NCBI RefSeq assembly: GCF_020177265.1
Contig: NZ_JAIVMC010000003.1
Coordinates: 372,001-436,000, forward strand
Reading direction: 5' to 3'
Source: Pseudooceanicola marinus
Lineage (GTDB): Bacteria > Pseudomonadota > Alphaproteobacteria > Rhodobacterales > Rhodobacteraceae
Length of the DNA stretch: 64,000 nt
How positions within the stretch are numbered: the stretch's first letter is position 1; each line of letters begins with the position of its first letter. Below the pieces are notes generated by a model, which did not search any database, had not been told where the DNA came from, and was given only the letters and a program-made list of their open reading frames with translations. Both the position numbers and the translations under genes were made by a program. Shown piece by piece: positions 612 to 47,940 of this stretch.

Positions 612-625
612 GGGGGAGGGAACCC

Positions 626-3538: not shown

Positions 3539-3665
3539 GCGCGTGGCCCTTTCCCGTGATGCCCTTCGGCCTGCCACAGCATCGGGAGGAGGGGTTACCT
3601 TTCCCTGAAGACCTGCCGCCGGAGTGAGGCGAATTCACCGGATCGCAGACGGGGCAGGGGTCACG

Positions 3666-3690
3666 AAAAAGGCCGCCCGAAGGCGGCCTT
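3666..3690 (-). terminator. Rho-independent terminator of the DEAD-box helicase gene
   Basis: Perfect 9-bp stem AAGGCCGCC/GGCGGCCTT with a TTCG tetraloop (minus strand), followed by five T residues. It lies 26 bp beyond the helicase stop codon. Confidence 0.9.
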
Positions 3691-3715
3691 GTCGATAACG
3701 ATGGAGGGGGGCGCC

Positions 3716-5272: not shown

Positions 5273-5455
5273 TTGTATCCGATCTATACGGACACATCTT
5301 GGCCCGTAGCGTCTAACGTCGTGGGGCGATGTGCCCCCGCGCGCCTCACGGCATCGCGATTTACGTGCCGTCGCATACCTCAGACGGGCCAAAAGGTCAA
5401 CGAGCGTGGGATCTTGTGGCGCCGTCTGACACGAAACAGAGGGTTTCGCGCTGCC

Positions 5456-8166: not shown

Positions 8167-8202
8167 GGCGCGACAATGCCCATTGGGCGGCCCCCCTGCA
8201 AG

Positions 8203-9810
8203 TCAGACCATCATCTCTTTCGTGGCCGACAGGGTGATGTCCGGGTAATCCCGGTCCACCCGGTCGATGTCCCACTGCAGGCGCGTCAGGTAGACGACGT
8301 CGCCGTCATGGTCGTAGGAAATGTGCTGCTTGTTGGCGTTGACGAACTTGTCGACCGCCAGGCGGTCCCCCTTCACCCAGCGGGCGGAGGTGAACTGCGA
8401 CGGCTCGAACCGCACCGGCAGGCCGTATTCCATCTCGATCCGGCTGCCCAGCACCTCGAACTGCAGTGCGCCCACGACACCGACGATGAAGCCGGAGCCG
8501 ATGGCGGGCTTGAAGACCTTGGCGGCGCCTTCCTCGGCAAACTGCATCAGCGCCTTTTCCAGGTGCTTGGCCTTCATCGGGTCGCCCGCGCGGACGCTTT
8601 GCAGCAGTTCCGGTGCGAACGACGGGATGCCGCTGACGCGCAGCGCCTCGCCCTCGGTCAGAGTGTCGCCGATGCGCAGCTGCCCGTGGTTCGGAATGCC
8701 GATGATGTCGCCGGCCCAGGCCTCCTCGGCCAGTTCCCGGTCGGAGGCCAGGAAGAGCACGGGGTTGGAGATCGACATTGGCTTCTTGGTGCGCACATGG
8801 GTCAGCTTCATGCCGCGTTTGAAGTGGCCCGATGCCATGCGCAGGAAGGCCACCCGGTCGCGGTGCTTGGGGTCCATGTTGGCCTGCACCTTGAAGACGA
8901 AGCCCGCGACCTTGCTTTCCTCCGGCGCGATCTGGCGCGGCTCGGCCGCCTGAACCTGCGGCTCGGGGCCATAGGTGCCGATGCCCTCCATCAGTTCCTT
9001 CACTCCGAAGGAGTTGATCGCGGAGCCGAACCAGATCGGCGTCAGCGTCCCTTCCAGCAGGGCCTGGCGGTCCAGCGGCGGCAGCAGCTCGCGCGCCATC
9101 TCGACCTCTTCGCGGAGCTTCTCCAGCAGGTCGGCGGGGATGTGTTCATCCAGCTTGGGATCGTCCAGCCCGTCGATGCGGATGGATTCCGCCACCCGGT
9201 TGCGGTCGGCGCGGTCCATCAGCTCCAGCCGGTCGTTCAGCATGTCGTAACAGCCGAGGAAATCGCGGCCCATGCCGATGGGCCAGCTGGCCGGCGTCAC
9301 GTCGATCGCCAGGTTTTCCTGGATCTCGTCGATGATGTCGAAAACCTCGCGGCTTTCGCGGTCCATCTTGTTGCAGAAGGTCAGGATCGGCAGGTCGCGC
9401 AACCGGCACACCTCGAACAGCTTCTGGGTCTGGCTTTCCACGCCCTTGGCCCCGTCGATCACCATGATCGCAGCGTCCACCGCCGTCAGGGTGCGATAGG
9501 TGTCTTCGGAGAAGTCGCTGTGGCCGGGGGTGTCCACCAGGTTGAAGCGGAATTCCTTGAAATCGAAGGACATGGCCGAGGCCGAAACGGAAATGCCCCG
9601 GTCCTTTTCCATCTGCATGAAGTCCGACCGCGTCCGCCGCGCCTCGCCCTTGGCGCGCACCTGGCCGGCCATCTGGATGGCGCCGCCGTAGAGCAGGAAC
9701 TTCTCCGTCAGGGTCGTCTTCCCGGCATCCGGGTGAGAGATGATGGCGAAGGTCCGGCGCCGGGCGATCTCGGGCGGCAATTGGGGGCGGTTGGAAGCGG
9801 TATCGAGCAT
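8203..9810 (-). CDS. prfC: Peptide chain release factor 3
   Basis: GTPase that recycles RF1/RF2 from the ribosome after peptide release. 535 residues, as in the family. G1 is ISHPDAGKTTLTEK (about residues 25-38), G3 DTPGHSDFSEDT, and G4 FCNKMDR; the RF3-specific RRRTFAIISHPDAGK opening and FKVQANMDPKHRDR are present. The start at 9810 gives the family N-terminus; the open frame continues 63 codons upstream but that stretch has no similarity. Transcribed on the minus strand ahead of the tandem glycosyltransferases. Confidence 0.97.
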   Translation of the reverse strand: MLDTASNRPQLPPEIARRRTFAIISHPDAGKTTLTEKFLLYGGAIQMAGQVRAKGEARRTRSDFMQMEKDRGISVSASAMSFDFKEFRFNLVDTPGHSDFSEDTYRTLTAVDAAIMVIDGAKGVESQTQKLFEVCRLRDLPILTFCNKMDRESREVFDIIDEIQENLAIDVTPASWPIGMGRDFLGCYDMLNDRLELMDRADRNRVAESIRIDGLDDPKLDEHIPADLLEKLREEVEMARELLPPLDRQALLEGTLTPIWFGSAINSFGVKELMEGIGTYGPEPQVQAAEPRQIAPEESKVAGFVFKVQANMDPKHRDRVAFLRMASGHFKRGMKLTHVRTKKPMSISNPVLFLASDRELAEEAWAGDIIGIPNHGQLRIGDTLTEGEALRVSGIPSFAPELLQSVRAGDPMKAKHLEKALMQFAEEGAAKVFKPAIGSGFIVGVVGALQFEVLGSRIEMEYGLPVRFEPSQFTSARWVKGDRLAVDKFVNANKQHISYDHDGDVVYLTRLQWDIDRVDRDYPDITLSATKEMMV

Positions 9811-35340: not shown

Positions 35341-35414
35341 GATTGGGGGAGGGGCGTTGCGCCCCGGGCAGCGGGCGAGGATCTGCTTTGATGTGGGTCA
35401 TATTTCAAAGGGTT

Positions 35415-35429
35415 GCGGGATAATCCCGC
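35415..35429. promoter_or_regulatory. 15-bp perfect palindrome GCGGGATAATCCCGC
   Basis: Seven-base arms GCGGGAT/ATCCCGC around a central A, 5 bp upstream of the GTGAC-N3-GTCAC site and 72 bp before the 35502 gene. It may be a second operator or a terminator-like hairpin for the module upstream. Confidence 0.35.
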
Positions 35430-35433
35430 CTTG

Positions 35434-35446
35434 GTGACCATGTCAC
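35434..35446 (+). promoter_or_regulatory. Putative Crp/Fnr-type activator site, copy 1 (GTGAC-CAT-GTCAC)
   Basis: Perfect palindromic half-sites GTGAC/GTCAC with a 3-nt spacer, 56 bp before the start at 35502. A TATCGT hexamer at 35469-35474 lies 31.5 bp from the site centre, where a class II activator would place the -10. The same site occurs before cydA and the DUF2892 gene. Confidence 0.6.
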
Positions 35447-35501
35447 TGAGGGGCGCGCGAAAGGGGCGTATCGTCGGATCAGATATCCAATGGAGGATCC
35501 G

Positions 35502-36713
35502 ATGAAACCGCAAGTGACCCGTCCCGCAGATCGCTGGTCGCCGCTGTATTTCCTGGCTTCGGTCGGGGCCGGTGGCCTGGCCGTGACCTTTTTCATGTAT
35601 CTGATGTTCTGGGTGAAACACCCCGGTCAGCCGGTGCCCGTTTTTGAGGACATCCAGGCGGCGCTGGCCACCGCAAGCCCGCTGTTCTCGGCGACCATCT
35701 ATCTGGCGCTGGCCGGGATCGCCGTCTTTGCCGCCATGAACCTGTACCTGCTGGTGTGGAACCTGCGGCGCACCGGCGCCTTCCTGCGCTCCGAGACCGG
35801 CGCGGCCCTGGCCGCCGGGCAGGGGCAGACCCAGATGACCGCGCTGCCGCTGGCGCTGGCCATGTCGATCAACGGCATGTTCATCTTAGGGCTGGTCTTC
35901 GTGCCCGGCCTCTGGGGCGTGGTCGAGTATCTCTTCCCGCTGGCCCTGATCGCCTTTGCCGCCGTGGGCGTGCTGGCGCTGCGCCAGGTGGGGCGGTACG
36001 TGGTGCGGGTGATCGGCCATGGCGGTTTTGACTGGAAGGCCAACAACTCGCTGTCGCAACTGCTGCCGGCCTTTGCCCTGTCGATGGTGGGGGTCGGCCT
36101 GGCCGCCCCGGCGGCGATGAGCACGGTCAAGGCCACCGCCGGTGTGGCACTGGTGCTGGCCAGCTTCTTCCTGGTGATCGCGGTGATCTACGGGGCGGTG
36201 AAACTGGTGCTGGGGGTGCGCTCGATGCTGGAGCATGGGGTGGCCGTGGAACAGGCGCCGACGCTGCTGATCGTGGTGCCCATGGTGACCGTCCTGTCGA
36301 TCCTGCTGGTGCGTCTGGACCATGCCCTGCACGTCCATTTCGGCGGCCATTCGACCCCGGCGGACATGCTGGTCTTCCTGACCCGGGCGCTGTCGGTGCA
36401 GCTGGGCTTCACCCTCTTCGGCCTGACGATCCTGTCGGCCACCGGCTATATCCGCCGCTTCCTCACCGGGTCCGAGACCTCGGTCGGGTCTTACGCGCTG
36501 ATCTGCCCCGGTGTGGCCCTGTCGGTGCTGATGCACTTCTGGATCAACAAGGGTCTGGTGGCGGTCGGCCTGATCGCCAAGTTCAGCACCGCCTACTGGG
36601 TCCTGAGCGGGGTGGCCGTGGCGCTGCAGCTGTCGATGATCCTGCTGCTGCTGGTGCTGAATCGCCGCCACTTCCTGGCGCGGCGCGCCCCGGCCCAGGT
36701 GCCCGCGGAATGA
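35502..36713 (+). CDS. About 10-TM membrane protein, TsoY/SLAC1-like, one cysteine
   Basis: 403 residues with about ten hydrophobic segments. The opening RWSPLYFLASVGAGGLAVTF, then FMYLMFWVKHPGQP, and later VFVPGLWGVVEYLFPLALIA are what I remember of the TsoY family of (seleno)proteins, related to the TehA/SLAC1 channel fold; I could not check this. The only Cys is residue 335 in SYALICPGVA, a candidate for the position that is Sec or Cys in that family. The ATG at 35502 has GGAGG 5 bp upstream, whereas the ATG at 35490 has none. It heads the cyd block and has the shared palindrome upstream, so it likely belongs to the same regulon. Transport substrate unknown; sulfite or another sulfur oxyanion would fit. 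Confidence 0.6.
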   Translation: MKPQVTRPADRWSPLYFLASVGAGGLAVTFFMYLMFWVKHPGQPVPVFEDIQAALATASPLFSATIYLALAGIAVFAAMNLYLLVWNLRRTGAFLRSETGAALAAGQGQTQMTALPLALAMSINGMFILGLVFVPGLWGVVEYLFPLALIAFAAVGVLALRQVGRYVVRVIGHGGFDWKANNSLSQLLPAFALSMVGVGLAAPAAMSTVKATAGVALVLASFFLVIAVIYGAVKLVLGVRSMLEHGVAVEQAPTLLIVVPMVTVLSILLVRLDHALHVHFGGHSTPADMLVFLTRALSVQLGFTLFGLTILSATGYIRRFLTGSETSVGSYALICPGVALSVLMHFWINKGLVAVGLIAKFSTAYWVLSGVAVALQLSMILLLLVLNRRHFLARRAPAQVPAE

Positions 36714-36741
36714 TCCGCGCGCCCCGGTCGAAGTGATCCCC

Positions 36742-36776
36742 GACCCCGCCCGGCCTGCTGCCCGGGCGGGGTCTTT
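36742..36776 (+). terminator. Rho-independent terminator after the 35502 gene
   Basis: 12-bp stem GACCCCGCCCGG/CCGGGCGGGGTC with an 8-nt loop and TTT following, 29 bp after the stop. The downstream Crp/Fnr gene therefore probably has its own promoter, or the terminator is partial. Confidence 0.85.
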
Positions 36777-36807
36777 ACCCATGACCCGCAGCCCAGGAGC
36801 CGCTGCC

Positions 36808-37629
36808 ATGCCCCATGTTTCCCATGCCTTCGGGACCCCGCCGGAGACCTCTGTCCGGTCCGGGCCGCAGGTCCCCCCGGACGCGCCCTGTCCTGACGCC
36901 CCCGACGCCGCGGCTGCCCGCGACCTGGTGGCGGCCGTGCGCGCGGCGGGCGGACGCCAGCAGGAGGCCGCGGCCGGGGCCCTTGCCTTCCGCTGGTTCG
37001 GCCCGCCGCGGGGCTTCGTCCTGCTGGTGACGGGGCGCCTGTCGGTGCGGTTTCACACGCGCAACCGGCTGGTGCCCATGGCGGAATGCCGGGCCAACGC
37101 GGGGCAGGACTGCATGCCGGTGACGGCGGCGATCCTGTCAGGCATCGGCCTGTCGGTTGCGGCCCACTGCCTGGAACGAACCCGCTGGCTGACGCTGGAT
37201 CCTGCGGCGTTCCGTCGCCTCGTGGCGGAGGACGCAGCCTTTCGCCGGGCGTTGTTTGCCCAGCATGCAAGGCGTTTGCCCTATTTCTTCCAGCGGGTGG
37301 CGGGGCCTGTCACCCTCAGCATGGAACAGCGCGTGGCGGAATGGCTACTGGCAAATGCGCGCGCGGATACGGTAGAGACGACGCACCAGGCCATGGCCGC
37401 CGATCTGGTCACCGCGCGCGAGGTCATTTCCCGCCGCCTGCGGGCGTTCGCCCGCCAAGGCTGGATCGAGCAGGGGCGCGGCACGATCCGTCTGACCGGG
37501 GCAGCGGCGCTCAGCCGCGTCGCGCGGGGCCAGACCGCCTGGGGCAGCACGGCGGGCCAGCGGCCCGAGGACAACAGGACGCGCGAGCGGGAGGCCAGCG
37601 CCGACAACAGCAGGACCGGGCGCCCCTGA
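36808..37629 (+). CDS. Crp/Fnr-family transcriptional regulator, divergent type
   Basis: 273 residues. The C-terminal winged helix is visible in THQAMAADLVTAREVISRRL and AFARQGWIEQGRGTIRLTG, with the E-x-x-S-R recognition pattern. The cyclic-nucleotide-like barrel is poorly conserved at the start, but CRANAGQDCMPVTAAIL aligns with YRVNAGESCVLTTACML of the regulator at 46856, preserving one Cys. The N-terminal 60 residues are Pro/Ala-rich and unique. I chose the ATG at 36808 because AGGAG lies 8 bp upstream; an ATG at 36781 has no such site. It lies 30 bp before cydD, presumably regulating the cyd genes. The inducing signal is not known. Confidence 0.82.
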   Translation: MPHVSHAFGTPPETSVRSGPQVPPDAPCPDAPDAAAARDLVAAVRAAGGRQQEAAAGALAFRWFGPPRGFVLLVTGRLSVRFHTRNRLVPMAECRANAGQDCMPVTAAILSGIGLSVAAHCLERTRWLTLDPAAFRRLVAEDAAFRRALFAQHARRLPYFFQRVAGPVTLSMEQRVAEWLLANARADTVETTHQAMAADLVTAREVISRRLRAFARQGWIEQGRGTIRLTGAAALSRVARGQTAWGSTAGQRPEDNRTREREASADNSRTGRP

Positions 37630-37659
37630 GCCCCGGCGGGGCAGAAGAGGCGAGGCCAG

Positions 37660-39408
37660 ATGCAGGACGTTGCGTTGCCGGACGGTGCCGGGCTTGAGCC
37701 CGAAACGGCACAGGCCGTGCCCGAGGCCACCCCGCCCGGAGACCGCCGCGCCGCCCGCGCCGCCATGCAGGCTCGCATCATCGCCCCGGTGAAGCCCCTG
37801 TTGCGGCGGGCCGGACTTCTGAGCATCCTGTCGGGTCTTCTCTGGCCGGTGCAGGCCGCTGCCATCGCCTGGGCCGTCTCCGGCTGGGCCGGCGGAGCCC
37901 TCGCGCTGGAGCGCAGCCTCTGGGCGGCCGGGATCTTCCTGCTCTGCGGGCTGATCCGTGCAGGCCTTGACCGGGTGGCAGGCGGCCTCCTCTACCGCGC
38001 CGCGGATGAGACGATCGCGCGAGAACGCGAGGGGCTGATCGGCCGCGAGGCGCGGCGTCCGGGCGGGGCAGGCTCCGCCGCCGTGGCCGCGCTGGCGGTG
38101 CAGAAGCTGCCGCTGCTGCATCCTTGGATCACCCGCTACCATGTCGCCATGCTGCGCACCTCGGTCATTCCGCTGGTCTACCTGGCCGTGGCCTTCTGGT
38201 TCTCTTGGGCCATCGGGGTCGTCCTGCTGGTCGCCGGGCCGCTGATCCCTGTCTTCATGGCCCTGGTCGGCATGGCCGCCGAGGACGCCAGCCGCCGCCA
38301 GATGGATGAGATCGGCGACATGAACACCATGCTGATGGACCGGCTGTCGGCCCTGTTGGACATCCGCCTGCTAGGCGCGCGCGCCCGCGCGGCCGAGGAT
38401 TTCGAGACCCGCGCCGACCGCCTGCGCGAGAAGACCATGGCGGTGCTACGCATCGCCTTCCTCAGCTCCACCGTGCTGGAGCTCTTCGCCGCCATCGGCG
38501 TGGCCATGGTCGCGGTCTTCGTCGGCTTCACCCTGCTGGGCGAGGTCGGCTGGGGCAGTTGGGGCAACGGGCTGACGCTTTATGAAGGGATCTTCCTGCT
38601 GCTGATCGCGCCAGAGTTCTTCCAGCCGCTGCGCGATCTGGCTGCCGCCTGGCACGATCGCGCCTCGGGCGTCTCGGTCGTGGAGGAGCTGGAGGCGATG
38701 GACGCCGCGCCGCGTGTCGCCTTGCTGGGCGAGGGGACGCAGGCCGCGCCGCTGGCCGGGCCGCTGTCGGTTTCGGTGCGAGGCGGGGTTGCATCCCTGC
38801 CGGGCCGGGCGTTGCCCCTGCCGGACCTGGACCTGAGCGCGGGGCAGAGCCTGGCGCTGGTCGGGCCCTCTGGCGTGGGCAAGTCCACGGCGCTGTCGGC
38901 GCTGGCCGGGCTGGTGCCGCTGGTCGAGGGCCGGATCGAGGTCTGCGGGCAGGAGCTGAACGCCGGCACCGCCGACGGCTGGCGCGCGCGCCTCGCCGTG
39001 GTGCCGCAGCGGGTGCATTTCCCGGATCTTCCCCTGGGCGACTGGCTGTCGGGCGGGCGTGCGGTGGACGAAGGCACGATGACCGAGGCGCTGGAGCTGG
39101 CCGAGGCCCGCGCCGTAGTCGACCGCCTGCCCGAGGGCCTGCAAACGCGGTTGGGTGAAAGCGGCGGCGGTGTTTCGGGCGGCGAGGCGCGGCGGCTGAT
39201 GATCGCCCGCGCGGTGCTGCAGGGCGCCGATCTGGTGCTGGCGGATGAACCGACGGCGGACCTGGACGCGCTGACCGCTGACCGGGTGACCCGCGCGCTG
39301 CGCCGCCTTCAGGGGCAAGGGGCGGCGCTGATCGTGGCGACCCATGACCCGGCGCTGGCCGGGGCGATGGACGCGCAGATCGTCATGACCGGGGAGGCAG
39401 AGGCATGA
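37660..39408 (+). CDS. cydD: Cysteine/glutathione ABC exporter subunit CydD
   Basis: 582 residues: a membrane domain of about six helices in the first 330 residues and a C-terminal ATPase with Walker A VGPSGVGKSTALS, signature GVSGGEARRLMIARA, Walker B LVLADEPTADLD and H-loop VATHDPAL. CydDC is required for assembly of cytochrome bd, probably by maintaining the periplasmic thiol balance and heme loading (known in E. coli). The annotated N-terminus is longer than usual; an internal start at residue 36 (MQARIIAPVKPLL) would be closer to the norm. It overlaps cydC by ATGA. Confidence 0.93.
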   Translation: MQDVALPDGAGLEPETAQAVPEATPPGDRRAARAAMQARIIAPVKPLLRRAGLLSILSGLLWPVQAAAIAWAVSGWAGGALALERSLWAAGIFLLCGLIRAGLDRVAGGLLYRAADETIAREREGLIGREARRPGGAGSAAVAALAVQKLPLLHPWITRYHVAMLRTSVIPLVYLAVAFWFSWAIGVVLLVAGPLIPVFMALVGMAAEDASRRQMDEIGDMNTMLMDRLSALLDIRLLGARARAAEDFETRADRLREKTMAVLRIAFLSSTVLELFAAIGVAMVAVFVGFTLLGEVGWGSWGNGLTLYEGIFLLLIAPEFFQPLRDLAAAWHDRASGVSVVEELEAMDAAPRVALLGEGTQAAPLAGPLSVSVRGGVASLPGRALPLPDLDLSAGQSLALVGPSGVGKSTALSALAGLVPLVEGRIEVCGQELNAGTADGWRARLAVVPQRVHFPDLPLGDWLSGGRAVDEGTMTEALELAEARAVVDRLPEGLQTRLGESGGGVSGGEARRLMIARAVLQGADLVLADEPTADLDALTADRVTRALRRLQGQGAALIVATHDPALAGAMDAQIVMTGEAEA

Positions 39409-41015
39409 GGGCGCTCTGGCGGGTTTTGAAACTGTTGCTGGGCGCCAGCCCCAAGGCCATGGCGCGCGGCGCCGCGCTGGCCGTCACCGTTCTGCTGATG
39501 GGGGTGGCCCTGCTGGGGCTGTCGGGCTGGTTCATCACCGCGACCGGGCTGGCGGGACTGGCCGGGATCGGCATCGCCTTCAACGTCTTCCAGCCCTCGG
39601 CGGGGGTGCGGCTGCTGGCCCTGGGTCGGACGGCGGCGCGCTATGGCGAACGGCTGTTGACCCATGACGCCACGCTGCGGGCGCTGGCCGCGCTGCGGGT
39701 GGACCTGCTGCGCCGTCAGGCGCGGGCCGGGGGGCGGGCGCTGGCGCGGCTGCGCAGCGAGGCCACGCTGACCCGGATCCTGGCGGATGTGGATGCGCTG
39801 GACGGGCTGGTACTGCGCCTGGCGCTGCCGGTCTTCGCGGCGCTGCTGACCCATGCGGTCGTCTTCGCGATGTTGGGCTGGCTGGCGGGCTGGCCCGTGG
39901 CGCTGACCGTGGCCGCGATTTACCTGCCGCTGGCGGCGCTGGTGCTGGCACTGCTGGCGCGGGCGGGCATGGCCCCTTCGCGGGAGGGCGAGAGCGAGGC
40001 GCAGGCCCTGCGCCGGGGGATGATCGACATGATCCGGGACCGCGAGGCGCTGATCCTGGGCGGCCAGCTGGCGGCCCGGGAAACGGCGCTGCGGGCGGGC
40101 GACGCACGGGCGCGCGCCGCCTCGGGGGCGCTGGATCGCGCCGAACGGCGCGCCGGCGCGCGGCTCTCGGCGCTGGTGGCGCTATCGGTGGCAGGCGCGC
40201 TGGTGGCCGGCGGCTGGCTGGCCCAGACGGGCGGGCTGGACCCGGCTCGCGCGGCCATCGGCATCTTCGTGGCGCTGGCCCTGGCCGAGACCGTGCTGCC
40301 GCTGCGCCGGGGCTTTGCCGAGCTGGGCCGCATGGTCGATGCGGCCTCTCGCGTCGATCCCGGCGCGTCTGCGCTCGGCGACGACAGGGAAGGACAGGAG
40401 ACGGACCGGGCAGAGGCGCCGATCCTGTCGGTCGACCGCCCCGAGGCGCGGTTCACGCTGCAACGGGGCGAGGCGCTGGCGCTGGAAGGGCCCTCGGGCG
40501 TGGGCAAGACCACGCTGCTGCTGCGCATCGCGGGCCTGATGGCGGGCGAGGGGATCGCAGTTGCGGGCCATGGGCCCGAAGACTGGACTGAGGACGCCCT
40601 GCGCGCCCGGGTCGCTATGCTGCCGCAACGCTCCGCCCTGATCGCCGGGACGATCCGCGACAACCTGGCCCTGGCCGCGCCCGAGGCCACGGATGAGACG
40701 TTCTGGCAGGCGCTGGAGGTCGTGGTCCTCGACACCGTGGTGCGTGATCGCGGCGGGCTGGACGCGCGTCTGGGGGAGAGTGGCACGGGCCTCTCGGGCG
40801 GGCAGTCGCGGCGCCTGGCCCTGGCGCGCTGCGTGCTGCGCGCGCCCGATCTGCTGCTGCTTGACGAACCGACCGAGGGGCTTGACCCGGCCACCGCGGC
40901 CCGCGTGCTGGGCAACCTGCGCGCCGCGCTGCCCGACAGCGCGATCCTTGCGACATTGCACCGTGGCGGGGATCACGTAATCTTTACCGAGCGACTCACC
41001 ATTTCCCGCCCCTGA
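39405..41015 (+). CDS. cydC: Cysteine/glutathione ABC exporter subunit CydC
   Basis: 536 residues. Membrane domain in the first 300 residues (LLMGVALLGLSGWFITATGL), then an ATPase with Walker A EGPSGVGKTTLLL, signature GLSGGQSRRLALARC, Walker B LLLLDEPTEGLDP. The start overlaps the cydD stop (ATGA). Partner of CydD in the heterodimeric exporter. The stop codon lies within the left arm of the hairpin at 41011-41036. The 187-bp gap to cydA carries two copies of the shared palindrome, so cydA has its own promoter. Confidence 0.93.
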   Translation: MRALWRVLKLLLGASPKAMARGAALAVTVLLMGVALLGLSGWFITATGLAGLAGIGIAFNVFQPSAGVRLLALGRTAARYGERLLTHDATLRALAALRVDLLRRQARAGGRALARLRSEATLTRILADVDALDGLVLRLALPVFAALLTHAVVFAMLGWLAGWPVALTVAAIYLPLAALVLALLARAGMAPSREGESEAQALRRGMIDMIRDREALILGGQLAARETALRAGDARARAASGALDRAERRAGARLSALVALSVAGALVAGGWLAQTGGLDPARAAIGIFVALALAETVLPLRRGFAELGRMVDAASRVDPGASALGDDREGQETDRAEAPILSVDRPEARFTLQRGEALALEGPSGVGKTTLLLRIAGLMAGEGIAVAGHGPEDWTEDALRARVAMLPQRSALIAGTIRDNLALAAPEATDETFWQALEVVVLDTVVRDRGGLDARLGESGTGLSGGQSRRLALARCVLRAPDLLLLDEPTEGLDPATAARVLGNLRAALPDSAILATLHRGGDHVIFTERLTISRP

Positions 41016-41036
41016 GGCGGTCGTTTTTGCCTCAGG
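41011..41036 (+). promoter_or_regulatory. cydC-cydA hairpin overlapping a Fnr-like box
   Basis: 8-bp stem CCTGAGGC/GCCTCAGG with a T-rich loop (41019-41028). The TTTTTG of the loop can alternatively pair with CAAAAA at 41038-41043. TTGCCTCAGGTCAA (41027-41040) also matches 7 of the 10 fixed positions of a Fnr box. Either a terminator for cydDC or a regulatory element. Confidence 0.35.
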
Positions 41037-41069
41037 TCAAAAACTGAACTCGAGATTCCAGTAGGTATT

Positions 41070-41082
41070 GTGACGACGTCAC
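41070..41082 (+). promoter_or_regulatory. Putative Crp/Fnr-type activator site, copy 2a (GTGAC-GAC-GTCAC)
   Basis: Perfect GTGAC/GTCAC palindrome, 120 bp before the cydA start. Its centre is 21 bp (two helical turns) from that of copy 2b, so two dimers could bind on one face of the DNA. Confidence 0.6.
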
Positions 41083-41090
41083 CGCCCTTG

Positions 41091-41103
41091 GTGACGAAGT
41101 CAC
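41091..41103 (+). promoter_or_regulatory. Putative Crp/Fnr-type activator site, copy 2b (GTGAC-GAA-GTCAC)
   Basis: Perfect palindrome; a TATGCC hexamer at 41127-41132 lies 32.5 bp from its centre, the spacing also seen at the DUF2892 promoter. Likely the proximal activator site of cydABX. Confidence 0.65.
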
Positions 41104-41202
41104 ACAGGAATTCAGTCCGGCGGGGCTATGCCCGGGACAATTGGAGAGTGGCCGAGTCGTGTTTTCTCCCCCGCGGCGCTCTCCCAAGCAAGGAGGCCAG
41201 AG

Positions 41203-42801
41203 ATGGAGCTCGACATCGTTGAGCTGTCACGACTGCAATTTGCAATGACAGCCATGTACCACTTTCTCTTCGTGCCGCTGACGTTGGGTCTTTCGATCCT
41301 CGTGGCGATCATGGAGACGGTCTATGTCATGACCGGACGACCGATATGGCGCCAGATGACCAAGTTCTGGGGGACGCTGTTCGGCATCAACTTCGTCCTC
41401 GGCGTTGCCACCGGCATCACCATGGAATTCCAGTTCGGGATGAACTGGAGCTACTACAGCCACTACGTCGGCGACATCTTCGGCGCGCCTCTGGCGATCG
41501 AGGGGCTGATGGCCTTCTTCCTGGAGGCGACCTTCGTTGGTCTGTTCTTCTTCGGCTGGGACAAGCTTTCGAAGGTTGCGCACCTGATCGTCGCCTGGCT
41601 GGTCGCGCTCGGCTCCAACTTCTCGGCGCTGTGGATCCTGATCGCCAACGGCTGGATGCAGAACCCGGTGGGGGCGGAGTTCAATCCCGACACCATGCGG
41701 ATGGAGATGACCAGCTTCTTCGACGTGCTGTTCAACGAGGTGGCCCAGGCCAAGTTCGTGCACACCGTCAGCGCGGGCTACGTCACCGCATCGGTCTTCG
41801 TGCTGGGGGTCTCGGCCTTCTACATGCTGCGCGGGCGCCACTTGCGCCTCGCGAAACGTTCGATCACCGTCGCCGCCAGCTTCGGCCTGGCCTCGGCCCT
41901 GTCGGTCGTCGTTCTGGGGGACGAGTCGGGCTATTCCGCCAGCCACACCCAGAAGATGAAACTGGCCGCCATCGAGGCCATGTGGGAGACCGAGGAAGCC
42001 CCGGCGCATTTCACCCTGGTCGGCATCCCCGACAAGGAGGCGCGCGAAACCCATTACGCGGTGCATATCCCCTGGGCCATGGGTCTGATCGGCACCCGTT
42101 CGCTGACCGAGGAGATCCCCGGGATCAACGAGCTGGTCGACGAGGCGCATGATCGCATCGAAAGCGGCATCATCGCCTATGACGCGCTGATGACCATCCG
42201 CGCTGAACGCGATGCCACCCCCGCCGATGTCCGCGCCACCTTCGAGCAGCATTCCGAGGACCTCGGCTTTGCCATGCTCTTGATGCGCTATACCGACGAT
42301 CCGCGCACCGCCACGCCCGAGATGATCGACCAGGCGGCCGAAGATACCATCCCCGGCGTATTCCCCCTGTTCTGGGCCTTCCGGATCATGGTGGGTCTCG
42401 GCTTCGGCTTCATCGGCATGATGGCCTATTTCTTCATCCGGTCGAGCTTCTACGGGCAGAGCTACCCTCGCTGGGCCCTGCATGCGGCCGTCTGGCTGAT
42501 CCCGGCGCCCTGGATTGCCGCCGAGCTGGGCTGGTTCGTGGCCGAGTTCGGGCGTCAGCCGTGGACCGTCGACGGGGTCCTGCCGACCGCGCTGTCGGTC
42601 AGCCACCTGTCGGTCGGTGACCTGCTGCTGACGCTTGCCGGCTTCGTCACCTTCTACAGCGTGCTCTTCATCATCGAGATGGGTCTGATGATCAAATACA
42701 TCCGCAAGGGCCCGACCGAAGATGTCGAGGAAACCGAAATCTGGGAAGAGCGGCACGCGGCCCGGCTTCAGGCCGATCCCGCCATCGCTGCCGCGGAGTA
42801 A
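41203..42801 (+). CDS. cydA: Cytochrome bd ubiquinol oxidase subunit I
   Basis: 532 residues, about nine membrane helices. Binds hemes b558, b595 and d and oxidises quinol, reducing O2 to water. The heme b595 ligand His is in MYHFLFVPLTLGLS (about residue 19). The Q-loop carries GDESGYSASHTQKMKLAAIE with the Lys and Glu equivalent to E. coli K252 and E257, and the loop is long, as in the E. coli-type (L-subfamily) enzymes. WIAAELGWFVAEFGRQPW is the family signature. The start at 41203 has AGGAGG 6 bp upstream; a longer frame from 41128 lacks a site. It is followed after 5 bp by cydB. Confidence 0.97.
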   Translation: MELDIVELSRLQFAMTAMYHFLFVPLTLGLSILVAIMETVYVMTGRPIWRQMTKFWGTLFGINFVLGVATGITMEFQFGMNWSYYSHYVGDIFGAPLAIEGLMAFFLEATFVGLFFFGWDKLSKVAHLIVAWLVALGSNFSALWILIANGWMQNPVGAEFNPDTMRMEMTSFFDVLFNEVAQAKFVHTVSAGYVTASVFVLGVSAFYMLRGRHLRLAKRSITVAASFGLASALSVVVLGDESGYSASHTQKMKLAAIEAMWETEEAPAHFTLVGIPDKEARETHYAVHIPWAMGLIGTRSLTEEIPGINELVDEAHDRIESGIIAYDALMTIRAERDATPADVRATFEQHSEDLGFAMLLMRYTDDPRTATPEMIDQAAEDTIPGVFPLFWAFRIMVGLGFGFIGMMAYFFIRSSFYGQSYPRWALHAAVWLIPAPWIAAELGWFVAEFGRQPWTVDGVLPTALSVSHLSVGDLLLTLAGFVTFYSVLFIIEMGLMIKYIRKGPTEDVEETEIWEERHAARLQADPAIAAAE

Positions 42802-42806
42802 GAACC

Positions 42807-43967
42807 ATGATCCTTTACGAACTTATCAGCTATGACGTGCTGCGGGTGATCTGGTGGGTGCTTCTGGGCGTCCTCCTGATCGGCTTTGCCCTGACCGACG
42901 GTTTCGACATGGGGGTCGGCGCGCTGCTGCCCTTCGTGGCCAAGACCGATGTGGAACGCCGGGTGGTGATCAACACCGTCGGCCCGGTCTGGGAAGGCAA
43001 CCAGGTGTGGTTCATCCTTGGCGGTGGCGCCATCTTCGCCGCCTGGCCGCCGCTCTACGCGGTCAGTTTCTCGGGCTTCTACCTGGCGATGTTCGCCGTG
43101 CTGGCCTGCTTCATCCTGCGGCCCGTGGGGTTCAAGTACCGCTCCAAGCGCGAAAGCGCGCGCTGGCGGCGGAACTGGGACTGGGCGCTGTTCGTCGGCG
43201 GGGCCGGTCCGGCGCTGCTCTTCGGGGTGGCCGTGGGCAATGCCATGCTGGGCGTGCCCTTCCACCTGAACGACCTGCTGATGCCGATGTATGACGGGAC
43301 CTTCTACGGCAAGTTCCTGGGTCTGCTGCGGCCCTTCGCGATCCTGTCGGGCGTGGTCAGCTTCGCCATGCTGATGATGCACGGCGCCGCCTGGCTGGCG
43401 CTGAAGACGGAAGGGGAGATCAACGCCCGCGCCCGTCGCATGGGGTCTGTCGCGGGGATCGTCGCCATCGTCGCCTATGCCCTGGCCGGTGTCTGGCTGG
43501 CCTTCGGGGTGGACGGCTTCACCCTCACCTCCGACGTGGTGGCCAATGGCCCATCGAACCCGCTTTACAGCGAGGTTGCGCGCGGCGGGTCCTGGCTTTC
43601 GGCCTATGCCGAGCGGCCCTGGATCGCCATCGCGCCCGTGCTCGGCTTCCTCGGGATGGTGCTGGCGGTGCTGGGCCTGCGGTCCCAGCGTGAGGTCTCG
43701 ACCCTGCTGTTCTCGAAGCTGGGGATCCTCGGCGTCATCAGCTCGGTCGGGCTGACGATGTTCCCCTTCATCCTGCCGTCCACTGTGGATCCGGCCTCCT
43801 CGCTGACGGTCTGGGACGCCTCGTCCTCGCACCGCACGCTGTTCATCATGCTGGTCTGCGCGCTGATCTTCATGCCGCTGATCCTGGCCTACACCGCCTG
43901 GGTCTACAAAGTCCTCTGGGGCAAGGTGACCGAAGATGACGTGACCGGCCCGTCGCACAGCTACTGA
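42807..43967 (+). CDS. cydB: Cytochrome bd ubiquinol oxidase subunit II
   Basis: 386 residues with about eight to nine hydrophobic segments. Family motifs are WWVLLGVLLIGFALTDGFDM, GVGALLPFVAK, VGPVWEGNQVWFILGGGAIF (in GPVWEGNQVW) and the C-terminal SSHRTLFIMLV. It completes the oxidase with CydA; it binds no heme in well-studied enzymes but stabilises the complex. It begins 5 bp after cydA and is followed after 19 bp by cydX. Confidence 0.96.
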   Translation: MILYELISYDVLRVIWWVLLGVLLIGFALTDGFDMGVGALLPFVAKTDVERRVVINTVGPVWEGNQVWFILGGGAIFAAWPPLYAVSFSGFYLAMFAVLACFILRPVGFKYRSKRESARWRRNWDWALFVGGAGPALLFGVAVGNAMLGVPFHLNDLLMPMYDGTFYGKFLGLLRPFAILSGVVSFAMLMMHGAAWLALKTEGEINARARRMGSVAGIVAIVAYALAGVWLAFGVDGFTLTSDVVANGPSNPLYSEVARGGSWLSAYAERPWIAIAPVLGFLGMVLAVLGLRSQREVSTLLFSKLGILGVISSVGLTMFPFILPSTVDPASSLTVWDASSSHRTLFIMLVCALIFMPLILAYTAWVYKVLWGKVTEDDVTGPSHSY

Positions 43968-43986
43968 CACGAAAGGAACAGATCAA

Positions 43987-44115
43987 ATGTGGTATTTTGC
44001 CTGGCTTCTGGGCCTTCCGCTGGCCGCCATCTTCGCCGTGATGAATGCGATGTGGCTGGAAATGCAACGCGACCGCCGTCTTGCCGACGAACATGACGAG
44101 GCAGGCGGGAACTGA
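43987..44115 (+). CDS. cydX: Cytochrome bd small subunit CydX
   Basis: 42 residues, one membrane helix: MWYFAWLLGLPLAAIFAVMN then AMWLEMQRDRR. The MWYFAW start is the CydX (YbgT) signature. CydX is needed for stability and activity of the bd oxidase at the heme d site. An AGGAA site lies about 10 bp upstream. The tail (ADEHDEAGGN) is acidic. It ends 103 bp before the flavoprotein gene. Confidence 0.95.
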   Translation: MWYFAWLLGLPLAAIFAVMNAMWLEMQRDRRLADEHDEAGGN

Positions 44116-44218
44116 CGACACCGCCCCGGCCGGGGACCCCCGTGGGGACGGGGCCGGCCGGGGCATTTCGAAGGGACCGGGGCCGTGGGGGGACCCGAAC
44201 GTGGTGGAGGAGAGCGGC

Positions 44219-45517
44219 ATGGTAGACCGCAGAGATTTCCTGAAACTGGCGGCGCTTGGGGCGACCGCCGGCATGGCGACGGGCACACAGGCCGCGCCGC
44301 AACCTGATCCGGTCGAAACGACCGCCCGGATCGTCATCATCGGCGCGGGTGCCGCCGGCACGGCGCTGGCCAACCGGTTGGTGCGGCGGCTGGACGGGGC
44401 GCAGATCACCCTGATCGACCCGCGCCGCGATCACCTCTATCAGCCGGGGCTGTCGCTGGTGGCGACGGGGCTGAAGCCCGCCGGTTACGTGGTGTCCAAA
44501 ACCACAGACTGGCTGCCCGACGGCGTGGATCTGATCCCCGACCGCGTGGCCGCGGTCGACCCCGAGGCGAAGACCGTCGCCACTGAGGGCGGCGAGGTCC
44601 TGGACTACGACTGGCTGGTCGTGGCCCCGGGGCTGGTGCTGGACCACGACGCGATCGAGGGGTTCTCGCTGGATCTGGTGGGCCGCGACGGCATCGGCGC
44701 GCTGTATGCCGGGCCAGACTACGCCGCGAAGACCTGGGAGGCGGCTGGCCGTTTCACCGAAGAGGGCGGGGTGGGCATCTTCACCCGGCCCGCGACCGAG
44801 ATGAAATGCGCCGGTGCGCCGCTGAAGCACACCTTCCTGATCGACGATATCGCCAAACGCCACGGCGCCGCGCGCGAGGTGGTCTATGCCGCGCCGCAGG
44901 GCAGCCTCTTCGGCGTGCCGATCGTGGCGGAAAAGGTGCGGATGCTGTTCGAGGATCGCGGCATCGACACGATGATGCAGTCGACCCTGGTCGCCGTCGA
45001 ACCGGGCGCCAAACGTGCCACCTTCCGCACCGAGACCGGGCTGGAGGAACGCGACTACGACTACCTGCACGTCATCCCGCCGCAGCGCGCGCCGGATTTC
45101 GTGGTGCAATCGGGCCTCGCCTGGGCCGACAAATGGGTCGATCAGGGCTGGGCCGAGGTCGACATGCACAACCTGCGCCACCTGCGCTATCCCGAAATAT
45201 TCGCCCTGGGCGACGTCGCGGGCGTGCCCAAGGGCAAGACGGCGGCATCGGTGAAATGGCAGGTGCCGGTGGTCGAGGATCACCTGGTTGCCGCCATCGA
45301 GGGCAAGGAGGGGACGGGCTATTACGACGGCTACACCTCTTGCCCGTTGATCACCCGCGTGGGCCGGGCAATGCTGGTGGAGTTCGACTACCACAACAAC
45401 CTGACCCCCAGTTTCCCGGGCGTGATCGCGCCGCTGGAAGAGCTGTGGATCAGCTGGCTGATGAAGGAAGTCGCGCTGAAGGCCACCTATAACGCCATGC
45501 TGCGCGGCCGCGCCTGA
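44219..45517 (+). CDS. Tat-exported sulfide:quinone reductase-like flavoprotein (type II)
   Basis: 432 residues. A twin-arginine signal is visible at residues 3-28 (DRRDFLKLAALGATAGMATG), so the folded FAD protein is exported by TatABC. The FAD loop is IVIIGAGAAGTALANRL. The two redox-cysteine contexts of type II SQRs are present: MKCAGAPLKH and DGYTSCPLITR with MLVEFDY following; I recall nearly the same segments in human SQOR. Predicted reaction: sulfide oxidation to persulfide/sulfane sulfur with two electrons to quinone at the periplasmic face. The start ATG has GGAGGAG upstream. It lies between cydX and the small membrane genes, in the bd oxidase operon. Flavocytochrome c-like or other FAD oxidoreductases are the alternatives. 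Confidence 0.82.
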   Translation: MVDRRDFLKLAALGATAGMATGTQAAPQPDPVETTARIVIIGAGAAGTALANRLVRRLDGAQITLIDPRRDHLYQPGLSLVATGLKPAGYVVSKTTDWLPDGVDLIPDRVAAVDPEAKTVATEGGEVLDYDWLVVAPGLVLDHDAIEGFSLDLVGRDGIGALYAGPDYAAKTWEAAGRFTEEGGVGIFTRPATEMKCAGAPLKHTFLIDDIAKRHGAAREVVYAAPQGSLFGVPIVAEKVRMLFEDRGIDTMMQSTLVAVEPGAKRATFRTETGLEERDYDYLHVIPPQRAPDFVVQSGLAWADKWVDQGWAEVDMHNLRHLRYPEIFALGDVAGVPKGKTAASVKWQVPVVEDHLVAAIEGKEGTGYYDGYTSCPLITRVGRAMLVEFDYHNNLTPSFPGVIAPLEELWISWLMKEVALKATYNAMLRGRA

Positions 45518-45532
45518 GGAGGAGGACAGACC

Positions 45533-45889
45533 ATGAAGGACATGACATTCAGTACCCTGATCGCCGTCTTCGAGGAGATTTTCGGACGCGGGCTGTTCTG
45601 GGCCATGGTGGCCGTCGCCGCAGTGGTGACGCTGGCCTATCTCTACGTGCTGATCCGCGACCGCGCGGTCAGCTGGCGCAAGTTCCTGCTGGCGCAGCTG
45701 TCGATGCCCGTGGGCGCGGTGGCCGCGGTGATCTTCGTGCAGGCGGTGACCCATTCGGGGTTCGAGGACATCGGCGGGCCGATCGACGTGATCGTCCTGC
45801 TGGCGGTGGCCGTGGTCGGGGCCATCGGCATGGCGATCCTCGTCTACACGGCGCAATCCCTTCTGACTGGACGGAGATCTGCGGAATGA
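45533..45889 (+). CDS. Small membrane protein (DUF5368-like)
   Basis: 118 residues with three hydrophobic segments (about residues 22-41, 55-75 and 84-106). It begins MKDMTFSTLIAVFEEIFGRG; I associate this with the Rhodobacterales family DUF5368 from memory. There is a strong GAGGAGGA site upstream. The stop overlaps the start of the next gene by ATGA. Conserved position in the block suggests a role in bd oxidase or SQR function, which is inference only. Confidence 0.75.
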   Translation: MKDMTFSTLIAVFEEIFGRGLFWAMVAVAAVVTLAYLYVLIRDRAVSWRKFLLAQLSMPVGAVAAVIFVQAVTHSGFEDIGGPIDVIVLLAVAVVGAIGMAILVYTAQSLLTGRRSAE

Positions 45890-46848
45890 CCGACGCCACC
45901 AGCGCCCCGCAGCCCTCGCGGCTGGAACATTTCCCGATTTCCTTCTTCGGCATGTCCATGGGCCTGTTCGGCCTGGCCCTGGCCCTGCACGCGGGCGGCC
46001 TGACGACTCCCGCCCACTGGGTCGGGGCAGGGGCGCTGGTGGTCTTTGCCGCGCTGGTCCTGGCGCTGGCCGCCAAGGCCGCGCTGCACTGGGAGGCGCT
46101 GAAGGCCGAATGGCACCACCCGGTGCGGCTGGCCTTCTTCCCGGCCACCTCGATCTCGCTGATCCTGCTGGCGACCTTCCTGCGGGAGGTCTCGCCGCCC
46201 GTGGCAGAGGGCGTCTGGCTGGTCGGAGTGGCGGTGCAGGCGGTGCTGACGCTGGTCGTCATTTCCGCCTGGATCTCGGCCCGGGCCTTCGGGCCGCAAC
46301 AGCTGTCGCCGGCCTGGTTCATCCCGGCCGTGGGCAATGTCATCGCCCCGCTGGCCGGCGTGCCCCTGGGCTATGTCGAGCTCAGCTGGTATTTCTTCGC
46401 CGTCGGCATGATCTTCTGGGTCGTGCTGCTGACGCTGGTCTTCAACCGGCTGATCTTCCACGATCCGCTGCCGGGCAAGTTGCGCCCGACTCTGGTCATC
46501 CTGGTGGCCCCGCCCGCCGTGGGGTTCCTGGCCTGGGTGCAATTGCAGGGCGGGCAGGTGGACGCCATGGCACGGATCCTGCTGAACGTGGGCTATTTCT
46601 TCACCGCGCTGGTGGCGATCCAGGTGCCGGCGCTGCTGAAACTGCCGTTCGCCCTCAGCTTCTGGGCGCTGTCCTTCCCGCTGGCGGCGATCACCACGGC
46701 CAGCTTCCGCTTCGCCGCGCTGACCGGCTCGGGGGTCCACCTCGGCCTGGGCTATGTCCTGCTGGCGGTGCTCGTGGTGACCATCGTGGCGCTGATCCTG
46801 CGCACCGCGCGGGCCGCCGCCGCCCATCAGATTTGCATACCGGAGTGA
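45886..46848 (+). CDS. SLAC1/TDT-family anion channel or transporter
   Basis: 320 residues, about ten hydrophobic segments. Matches the tellurite-resistance/dicarboxylate/SLAC1 (TDT) fold: RLEHFPISFFGMSMGLFGLA, then AWFIPAVGNVIAPLAG and the WYFFAVGMIFWVVLL helix. Family members carry anions including sulfite (yeast Ssu1) and C4-dicarboxylates. Export of sulfite or another sulfur oxyanion fits the neighbouring SQR but is inferred. Coupled by ATGA to the gene before, and 7 bp from the regulator that follows. Confidence 0.85.
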   Translation: MTDATSAPQPSRLEHFPISFFGMSMGLFGLALALHAGGLTTPAHWVGAGALVVFAALVLALAAKAALHWEALKAEWHHPVRLAFFPATSISLILLATFLREVSPPVAEGVWLVGVAVQAVLTLVVISAWISARAFGPQQLSPAWFIPAVGNVIAPLAGVPLGYVELSWYFFAVGMIFWVVLLTLVFNRLIFHDPLPGKLRPTLVILVAPPAVGFLAWVQLQGGQVDAMARILLNVGYFFTALVAIQVPALLKLPFALSFWALSFPLAAITTASFRFAALTGSGVHLGLGYVLLAVLVVTIVALILRTARAAAAHQICIPE

Positions 46849-46855
46849 GACGGAG

Positions 46856-47569
46856 ATGAGCCAGACCGCCAATCTCGACACCGACGACAGGACCGAGGCC
46901 AGCCTGACCAACTGGATCGACCGGTTTGACGGACTGAAATCCCTGCCGGAAGACACCCGCACCCGCCTGGCGCGGGGCAGCCGCGTGCGCCGCTTCCCCG
47001 AGGGCGCGGTTCTGTTCGAGCCGGGGCAGGAGGCCGACCGTCTGCTGCTGTTGTTGTCGGGCACGGTGCGGGTCCAGCAAAGTTCCGACCAGGGGCGGGA
47101 GGTCTTCCTCTACCGGGTGAACGCCGGCGAAAGCTGCGTTCTGACCACCGCCTGCATGCTGGCCTTCGAGGATTACGCGACCACCGGCATCGCGGAGACC
47201 CCGGTGCTGGCCGCCGAGATCCCGCGCGGCACCTTTGACGCGCTGGTGGCCGAAAGCCGGGTGTTCCGCGAGTTCGTCTTCCGCGCCTATGCGCGGCGCA
47301 TCACCGATCTGTTCACCCTGATCGACGATATCGTCTTCCAGCGGCTGGATGTGCGCCTGGCCGGGCGGCTGGTCGAGTTGGCCGATGCCGATGGCGTGGT
47401 GCATGCCACGCATCAGGTGCTGGGCACCGAGCTGGGCACCGCGCGGGAGGTCATCAGCCGCCTGCTGTCGGATTTCCAGAAACGGGGGCTGGTGAAACAG
47501 GCGCGCGGTGCGGTCTGCCTGCTGGACCGGGAGGCGCTGGAACGGCTGGCGCGGGGTGGCGAGCGCTGA
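46856..47569 (+). CDS. Crp/Fnr-family transcriptional regulator
   Basis: 237 residues. An N-terminal cNMP-like barrel (VRRFPEGAVLFEPGQEADRL, then LLLLSGTVRVQ) leads to YRVNAGESCVLTTACMLAF with two Cys. The C-terminal HTH is THQVLGTELGTAREVISRLL, with the E-x-x-S-R recognition pattern. No Fnr-type N-terminal four-Cys cluster is present, so an iron-sulfur oxygen sensor is unlikely; the two Cys at about 81 and 87 could sense a thiol or sulfur signal. It lies at the end of the cyd-SQR operon and 26 bp before a copy of the shared palindrome, so it is the leading candidate for the factor that binds it. Confidence 0.88.
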   Translation: MSQTANLDTDDRTEASLTNWIDRFDGLKSLPEDTRTRLARGSRVRRFPEGAVLFEPGQEADRLLLLLSGTVRVQQSSDQGREVFLYRVNAGESCVLTTACMLAFEDYATTGIAETPVLAAEIPRGTFDALVAESRVFREFVFRAYARRITDLFTLIDDIVFQRLDVRLAGRLVELADADGVVHATHQVLGTELGTAREVISRLLSDFQKRGLVKQARGAVCLLDREALERLARGGER

Positions 47570-47594
47570 TCATCGCCGGATCACGTGGGGTTTG

Positions 47595-47607
47595 GTGACA
47601 AGATCAC
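47595..47607 (+). promoter_or_regulatory. Putative Crp/Fnr-type activator site, copy 3 (GTGAC-AAG-ATCAC)
   Basis: One mismatch to the shared palindrome. A CATGAT hexamer at 47631-47636 lies 32.5 bp from its centre, and the start codon of the DUF2892 gene is 61 bp downstream. Confidence 0.55.
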
Positions 47608-47667
47608 CGTGGACCCTGGGGGATCGGTGGCATGATGGCGCCCTGACATCCCCGAAAGGAATGCGAT

Positions 47668-47877
47668 ATGTCCGTGAACATGGGAAAGATCGACCGCGCC
47701 CTGCGCCTGGTCATTGCCGCGGTGCTGGTCTGGCTGGCCTTCGGCAGCGCCGTGGCGGCCGCCGGCCTGCTGCACTGGCTGGCCCTGATCGTGGCCGCGG
47801 TGATGGTGCTGACCGCCGTGATCGGTAACTGTCCGCTCTACAGCCTGATCGGCCTGAAGACCTGCAAGAGCTGCTGA
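47668..47877 (+). CDS. DUF2892 (YgaP-type) membrane protein
   Basis: 69 residues: SVNMGKIDRALRLVIAAVLV, then WLAFGSAVAAAGLLHWLALI, and IGNCPLYSLIGLKTCKSC at the end. This is DUF2892, the transmembrane hairpin also found at the C-terminus of rhodanese-like YgaP. It has two hydrophobic segments and three Cys in the last 16 residues, one of them in the conserved NCPLY. Its place next to the sulfur-linked block and the shared operator upstream suggest it belongs to the same response. Confidence 0.9.
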   Translation: MSVNMGKIDRALRLVIAAVLVWLAFGSAVAAAGLLHWLALIVAAVMVLTAVIGNCPLYSLIGLKTCKSC

Positions 47878-47913
47878 CGGCGCCTTGGCGCAAGGCGGCC
47901 AAACTGATGACAG

Positions 47914-47940
47914 GGGCCGGGCGATCAGCCCGGCCCTTTA
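47914..47940 (+). terminator. Rho-independent terminator of the DUF2892 gene
   Basis: 9-bp stem GGGCCGGGC/GCCCGGCCC, GATCA loop, followed by TTTAT; 36 bp after the stop codon. Confidence 0.9.

Follow-up and report, generated by a model that had tools for sequence, protein, structure and literature searches.

Cytochrome bd oxidases of Escherichia coli are described as insensitive to H2S (PMC8657789), bd-I is classed as a high-affinity oxidase (PMC6431628), and a cydDC-cydAB gene order with a small CydX is known from the Brucella-type alphaproteobacterial cydDCABX operon (PMC5322542). The same gene order was found in a 64,000-nucleotide stretch of Pseudooceanicola marinus DNA (contig NZ_JAIVMC010000003.1, positions 372,001 to 436,000), called the window in what follows, in a cluster that also holds the gene of a sulfide:quinone oxidoreductase (SQR)-like flavoprotein, SQR-A. 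This is a real and recurrent arrangement, in which an SQR is linked with an oxidase of a kind documented as resistant to sulfide (PMC8657789), and we read the cluster as a module that oxidises sulfide at low oxygen, leading from SQR-A to cytochrome bd-I (probability about 0.6).

Gene Content of the Cluster

The cluster comprises 12 genes, all on the + strand between 35490 and 47877. Their list and order, given in an original prediction made from the bare sequence, were borne out by the profile matches:

35490 to 36713, + strand: tsoY-family gene (NF047644) for a ten-transmembrane-segment protein of predicted SLAC1 fold; the start is possibly 35502.
36733 to 37629, + strand: Crp/Fnr-family regulator 1 (Crp1), Crp/Fnr helix-turn-helix profile; the true start is possibly internal; Cys119 and Cys127 conserved.
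37660 to 39408, + strand: cydD, best match CydD (421.9 bits; curated equivalog cut-off 435).
39405 to 41015, + strand: cydC, best match TIGR02868 (288.2 bits; equivalog cut-off 329).
41203 to 42801, + strand: cydA, PF01654 (579 bits); start read from the FNR-box analysis.
42807 to 43967, + strand: cydB, TIGR00203 (445 bits; cut-off 117).
43987 to 44115, + strand: cydX, 42 amino acids, TIGR02106 (59.5 bits; cut-off 31.6).
44219 to 45517, + strand: SQR-A, sulfide:quinone oxidoreductase-like flavoprotein with a twin-arginine translocation (Tat) signal, Pyr_redox_2; Cys197 and Cys375 catalytic.
45533 to 45889, + strand: DUF5368 membrane protein, constant partner of SQR-A, PF17336 (170 bits).
45886 to 46848, + strand: SLAC1/TDT anion channel-like protein, PF03595 (179 bits).
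46856 to 47569, + strand: Crp/Fnr-family regulator 2 (Crp2), Crp/Fnr profile; Cys94-x5-Cys100.
47668 to 47877, + strand: YgaP-like transmembrane protein, YgaP-like_TM PF11127 (72 bits), which we take to be the DUF2892 of the original prediction.

SQR-A and Its Partner DUF5368

SQR-A begins with MVDRRDFLK at 44219, and GGAGGAGAG stands directly 5' of this start. The nearest solved structure is that of human SQOR (207 bits), a type II sulfide:quinone oxidoreductase, with which both catalytic cysteines align, in the motifs KCAGAP and YTSCPL. SQR-A thus has the flavin adenine dinucleotide (FAD) disulfide-reductase fold and the two catalytic cysteines by which a sulfide:quinone oxidoreductase is recognised, and Cys197 and Cys375 are retained in all 84 aligned rows, which are those of the window and 83 further genes, the second SQR type described below among them. 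The flavoprotein with an RRDFLK signal foreseen by the original prediction was confirmed. An RRxF motif precedes the FAD motif in 66 of 81 SQR genes; the 14 listed genes without it are nine SQR-A genes with RR and another residue, four of the second SQR type and one ambiguous case. Because of the twin-arginine signal, SQR-A is probably exported to the periplasmic side. It failed the profile for the selenoprotein subtype of type III SQR (NF049943; 201 bits, cut-off 525), and its frame has no internal stop.

Relatives were compared in the best 80 of 363 loci, a choice that favours close relatives and includes a near repeat of the window (L002, P. marinus), in which the order is the same gene for gene and the SQR is 98% identical. 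The DUF5368 gene lies no more than 200 bases 3' of SQR-A in all 79 loci that have at least 400 bases downstream. Among 196 genomes of the order, SQR-A (62-100% identity) was found in 34 and DUF5368 exceeded its cut-off in the same 34, in every case at a distance of no more than 30 bases. The fixed core of the cluster is the SQR-DUF5368 pair, not the 12-gene set. The structure of DUF5368 was modelled with a predicted local distance difference test score (pLDDT) of 83.4 and a predicted template modelling score (pTM) of 0.59; the best PDB match had an E-value of only 4.5, and a literature search on DUF5368 found no paper.

On a plasmid of Paracoccus denitrificans PD1222 (L187, NC_008688.1, 7833-17179) the pair occurs without adjoining cyd genes, a few genes away from those of an ArsR regulator, a TIGR01244 sulfur transferase and YeeE/YedE proteins.

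Clustering of the neighbouring genes in the 80 loci, from our own GC3-based gene caller, by which some genes were missed or misplaced, gave a peroxiredoxin in 18, a metallo-beta-lactamase matching the dioxygenase half of Blh (sulfur dioxygenase) in 18, a secreted DsrE-like protein in 17 (a weak assignment), an Rrf2 regulator in 16, a LysR regulator in 13, SulP in 11 and a BLH/DUF442 phosphatase-like protein in five. A second SQR (36-38% identity) lies 3' in L003, L005, L010, L012 and L049; its DUF442-like start was judged by eye in all of these but L012, and the fusion was profile-tested in L142 only. The nearby sulfur dioxygenase, peroxiredoxin, SulP, DsrE-like protein and second SQR support sulfide as the substrate of SQR-A, and with it the sulfide role assigned by the original prediction.

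These neighbours could also be a sign of thiol stress, if what SQR-A handles in the periplasm were not sulfide but an organic persulfide, a polysulfide or a redox protein, with the bd oxidase doing no more than draining its electrons. The Tat signal and the constant DUF5368 partner, both unlike the human enzyme, would fit such a substrate, as would the second, DUF442-type SQR, which is present in the same genome (C10, 39%) and adjoins SQR-A in several loci, and the peroxiredoxin and LysR genes, which suggest oxidant stress. However, both sulfide-oxidising cysteines are kept throughout the alignment and sulfur dioxygenase and SulP genes are near, and we consider this alternative improbable.

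The secreted DsrE-like family (L066, 14047-14487, and 16 other loci) is without a Pfam match. The motifs CGPA and VCAIYLP, with one Cys each, are present in 17 of 17 members, and the gene lies immediately 5' of SQR-A in ten of them and immediately 3' of SLAC1 in ten. No match was obtained in the genome of the window, in a search that was weakly informative.

Association with Cytochrome bd-I

The CydA, CydB and CydX proteins that define bd-I are all encoded in the window; CydA matches its Pfam family and the CydB and CydX profiles are over their cut-offs. In the equivalog profile of E. coli CydA the window protein stays below the cut-off (738.9 versus 968 bits), and the products of cydD and cydC, although CydD and CydC are their best profile matches, both score slightly below the equivalog cut-offs.

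All five genes cydD, cydC, cydA, cydB and cydX are upstream of SQR-A, on the same strand, in 36 of the 69 loci whose upstream sequence is 8 kb or longer. A bd-I CydA (at least 72% identity) is present in 31 of the 196 genomes and occurs together with SQR-A in 17, where 5.4 were expected, the genes adjoining in eight of the 17; at the level of genera, SQR-A and bd-I are each present in 26 of 88 and share 19 (7.7 expected). The genome sets for these Fisher tests were compiled by hand. In a tree of 58 SQR-A rows from the 80 loci, the others having been dropped by a length and motif filter, the cyd-adjacent label switches 15 times, and at least 11 switches are forced by supported branches, although some rows marked as without cyd come from short upstream contigs, such as L024, and are mislabelled. 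The cyd-SQR link is therefore not one frozen inheritance.

Of the co-occurrence anticipated by the original prediction, the parts concerning cyd with SQR-A and the SQR-DUF5368 pair stood, but the full set is not fixed: in the 63 loci that extend 8 kb to either side, a SLAC1 gene lies no more than 10 kb away 22 times, Crp2 12 times and TsoY 10 times. Since L003, L005, L007 and L008, whose SQR is 76-79% identical, keep most of the members, the gene order is more than chance. A literature search on cyd together with SQR returned nothing describing this unit, a result that holds for the searches made here and for the available portions of PMC5322542 and PMC6431628.

Regulation

The FNR consensus is TTGAT-N4-ATCAA (PMC5398030). 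Exact boxes were taken as TTGAY-N4-RTCAA no more than 260 bases before the estimated start, the starts being extrapolated from tblastn. Of 38 loci examined at cydA, 23 have such a box 5' of the gene, and of 79 examined at SQR, 27 have one; windows drawn at random from these loci contained one in 108 of 8000 cases. For 23 of the 27 SQR sites the distance to the start is 73 to 105 bases. Together, cydA and SQR account for 51 of the 71 exact FNR sites in the 80 loci; the corresponding figures elsewhere were 0/26 for SLAC1, 0/79 for DUF5368, 0/12 for Crp2, 0/34 for CydD and 2/12 for TsoY. The boxes at cydA and SQR of the relatives therefore make low oxygen the best-supported cue across the family, while the sequence does not prove such control for the genome of the window. 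The sites seen in the window itself are as follows:

35388 to 35401, + strand: FNR-box-like site with one mismatch, 5' of tsoY; chance level.
41027 to 41040, + strand: FNR-box-like site with one mismatch, 5' of cydA; chance level in the window.
47912 to 47938, + strand: terminator-like hairpin with an 11-pair stem (hairpin scan), just 3' of the last gene and ending the unit.

Terminator-like sites in the region numbered 14, with 5.5 expected from shuffles, and a scan for sigma-70 promoters gave 0 sites (0.7 expected).

The same boxes would suit a plain low-oxygen respiration regulon, in which cyd and SQR-A are together mainly as FNR-controlled quinone enzymes of microoxic life and SQR-A only detoxifies sulfide, there being no special route by which electrons from sulfide reach oxygen through bd. 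Both genes do have exact boxes, 19 of the 27 SQR loci with a box being ones in which cydA is not upstream, and cydA is not found upstream on the same strand in 33 of the 69 loci. Against this, sulfur-oxidation genes are dense around SQR-A and the cyd-SQR adjacency changes repeatedly on the tree, and we regard the regulon explanation as unlikely.

FNR proper has four conserved cysteines, which hold a 4Fe-4S cluster. Neither regulator of the cluster shows this pattern, each having two well-conserved cysteines, C94 (12 of 12 rows) and C100 (11 of 12) in Crp2 and C119 and C127 (both 8 of 8) in Crp1, where Cys146 and Cys53 are present in five and four of the eight rows. The close cysteine pair in each of two different Crp/Fnr regulators is possibly a thiol or persulfide switch.

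The SLAC1/TDT Protein and TsoY

In the SLAC1/TDT protein Phe264 aligns with the gate residue Phe262 of TehA, in helix 9 (numbering from the alignment), and F264 and P265 are invariant in 25 of 25 rows. The TsoY protein belongs to family NF047644 (499 bits, cut-off 150) and has an invariant cysteine, codon 36504-36506, which is Cys334 when counted from the Lys at 35505 and is replaced by selenocysteine (Sec) in selenoprotein relatives. The profile of selenoprotein TsoY itself (NF047643) was failed by the window protein, with 50 bits against a cut-off of 250, and no in-frame stop is present. The predicted structure of TsoY is a ten-helix SLAC1/TehA fold, residues 9-394 matching TehA 7-310, and Cys334 probably stands where other channels of this fold have the gate Phe. 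The two anion-channel-like membrane proteins of the original prediction were thus both recovered, the TDT protein by profile and TsoY by predicted fold only. The new element would be a TsoY of SLAC1 fold in which a thiol or selenol site is conserved; a literature search combining SLAC1/TehA, selenoprotein and sulfide found no paper.

TsoY may nevertheless be a passenger, with an unrelated role such as that of a metal or halide channel and here by chance. Most TsoY loci from the order are without sulfur genes, and in two TsoY genomes outside it (L140, L141) no query gene was found within 14 kb of TsoY. On the other side, TsoY is present in 52 of the 196 genomes and in 26 of the 34 with SQR-A, where 9.0 were expected, and in another family of the phylum, in which six of 148 genomes have TsoY, SLAC1 (two) or a peroxiredoxin (five) adjoins it in all six, four of these being one genus. 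In one of these six (L142; G378), the stretch 1-9200 holds SulP, a DUF442-SQR fusion, sulfur dioxygenase, TsoY, SLAC1 and peroxiredoxin, together with an octaheme cytochrome of the tetrathionate reductase family. On an Aliarcobacter plasmid (L185, NZ_CP099557.1, about 4200-8600) SulP, SLAC1 fragments, a frameshifted tsoY and, beside it, a DsrE-like gene stand together; the neighbourhood is the same, but decayed and in another phylum. The passenger explanation is to be taken seriously, although we lean against it.

Where tsoY is away from the cyd cluster (L112-L131, L160-L179), it is often near SMC-like or cobalamin-type genes, as named by eye.

Proposed Mechanism

In the module proposed here, SQR-A would be exported by the Tat route to the periplasmic face of the inner membrane, where it is probably held or helped by DUF5368, and would oxidise sulfide to sulfane sulfur with reduction of ubiquinone. 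Cytochrome bd-I, matured with CydDC, would reoxidise the quinol, being of an oxidase type with high oxygen affinity that sulfide does not block. The SLAC1/TDT protein and the SLAC1-fold TsoY may carry sulfur anions (sulfite, hydrosulfide or persulfide) through the membrane, and the invariant Cys of TsoY, probably at the gate, might detect the sulfur species that pass or react with them. Control of the FNR type would couple cyd and SQR to low oxygen, to which the two Crp regulators, with their conserved cysteine pairs, may add a sulfur or redox signal.

A bolder version holds that the TsoY family are SLAC1-fold channels for sulfur anions whose gate Phe has become a reactive Cys or Sec, that a persulfide or selenylsulfide formed there opens, closes or drives the pore, and that these channels, the Tat-exported SQR, DUF5368 and bd-I together make up a periplasmic unit of sulfide oxidation under oxygen control. 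We offer this as a tentative idea, and think it rather doubtful in its full form.

Several observations weigh against the module and the part given in it to TsoY. Besides the loci without upstream cydA, the window holds two one-mismatch FNR-like sites and no exact one, where 1.99 are expected by chance, and the genome co-occurrence tests ignore kinship. TsoY has no Pfam match, and hhalign against SLAC1 found no homology (probability 1.2%, and 0.1% in a global run). When restricted to helices 8-10, hhalign paired helix 10 of TsoY with SLAC1 helix 9 (5% and 27%), a pairing not adopted because the structural match runs over TsoY 9-394 and TehA 7-310, although it counts against the helix-9 register preferred here. 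The best ungapped helix-9 register does put Cys334 at the gate Phe, with a shuffle p of 0.28, not significant alone. Finally, bd-I and TsoY adjoin in four of the 17 genomes that hold both, and among 43 TsoY-centred loci (40 from the order and three from outside) an SMC-like gene, named by eye, is near in 17, SLAC1 in one and SQR in two.

Comparison with Known Systems

In many alphaproteobacteria the arrangement brings a sulfide-oxidising enzyme together with an oxidase type that withstands sulfide, there are signs that low oxygen controls it, and it fits life at oxygen-sulfide boundaries. Two protein families of unassigned function also gain a testable role: DUF5368 is the constant companion of an SQR with a Tat signal, and TsoY a protein of predicted SLAC1 fold whose gate probably carries a Cys or Sec.

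Human SQOR has in common with SQR-A the FAD fold, both catalytic cysteines in the same motifs and a similar length to the C-terminus, whereas the twin-arginine signal and the constant DUF5368 partner belong to SQR-A. The next-best solved relative, FccB of flavocytochrome c sulfide dehydrogenase, is a sulfide flavoenzyme too, but its match (78.6 bits) is much weaker than that of SQOR, and no cytochrome subunit gene was seen in the cluster. The SLAC1/TehA channels are matched by the TDT gene by profile and by TsoY in predicted fold only, TsoY being without a sequence match and probably having Cys or Sec at the position of the gate Phe. Selenoprotein TsoY (NF047643; PMC13188914) is a homologous family whose UxxV motif fits Cys334-Pro-Gly-Val337 of the window protein, which has Cys in place of Sec. 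From the Brucella-type operon (PMC5322542) the window differs in that its cyd genes are preceded by tsoY and a Crp gene and followed by the SQR-DUF5368 pair and an anion channel gene.

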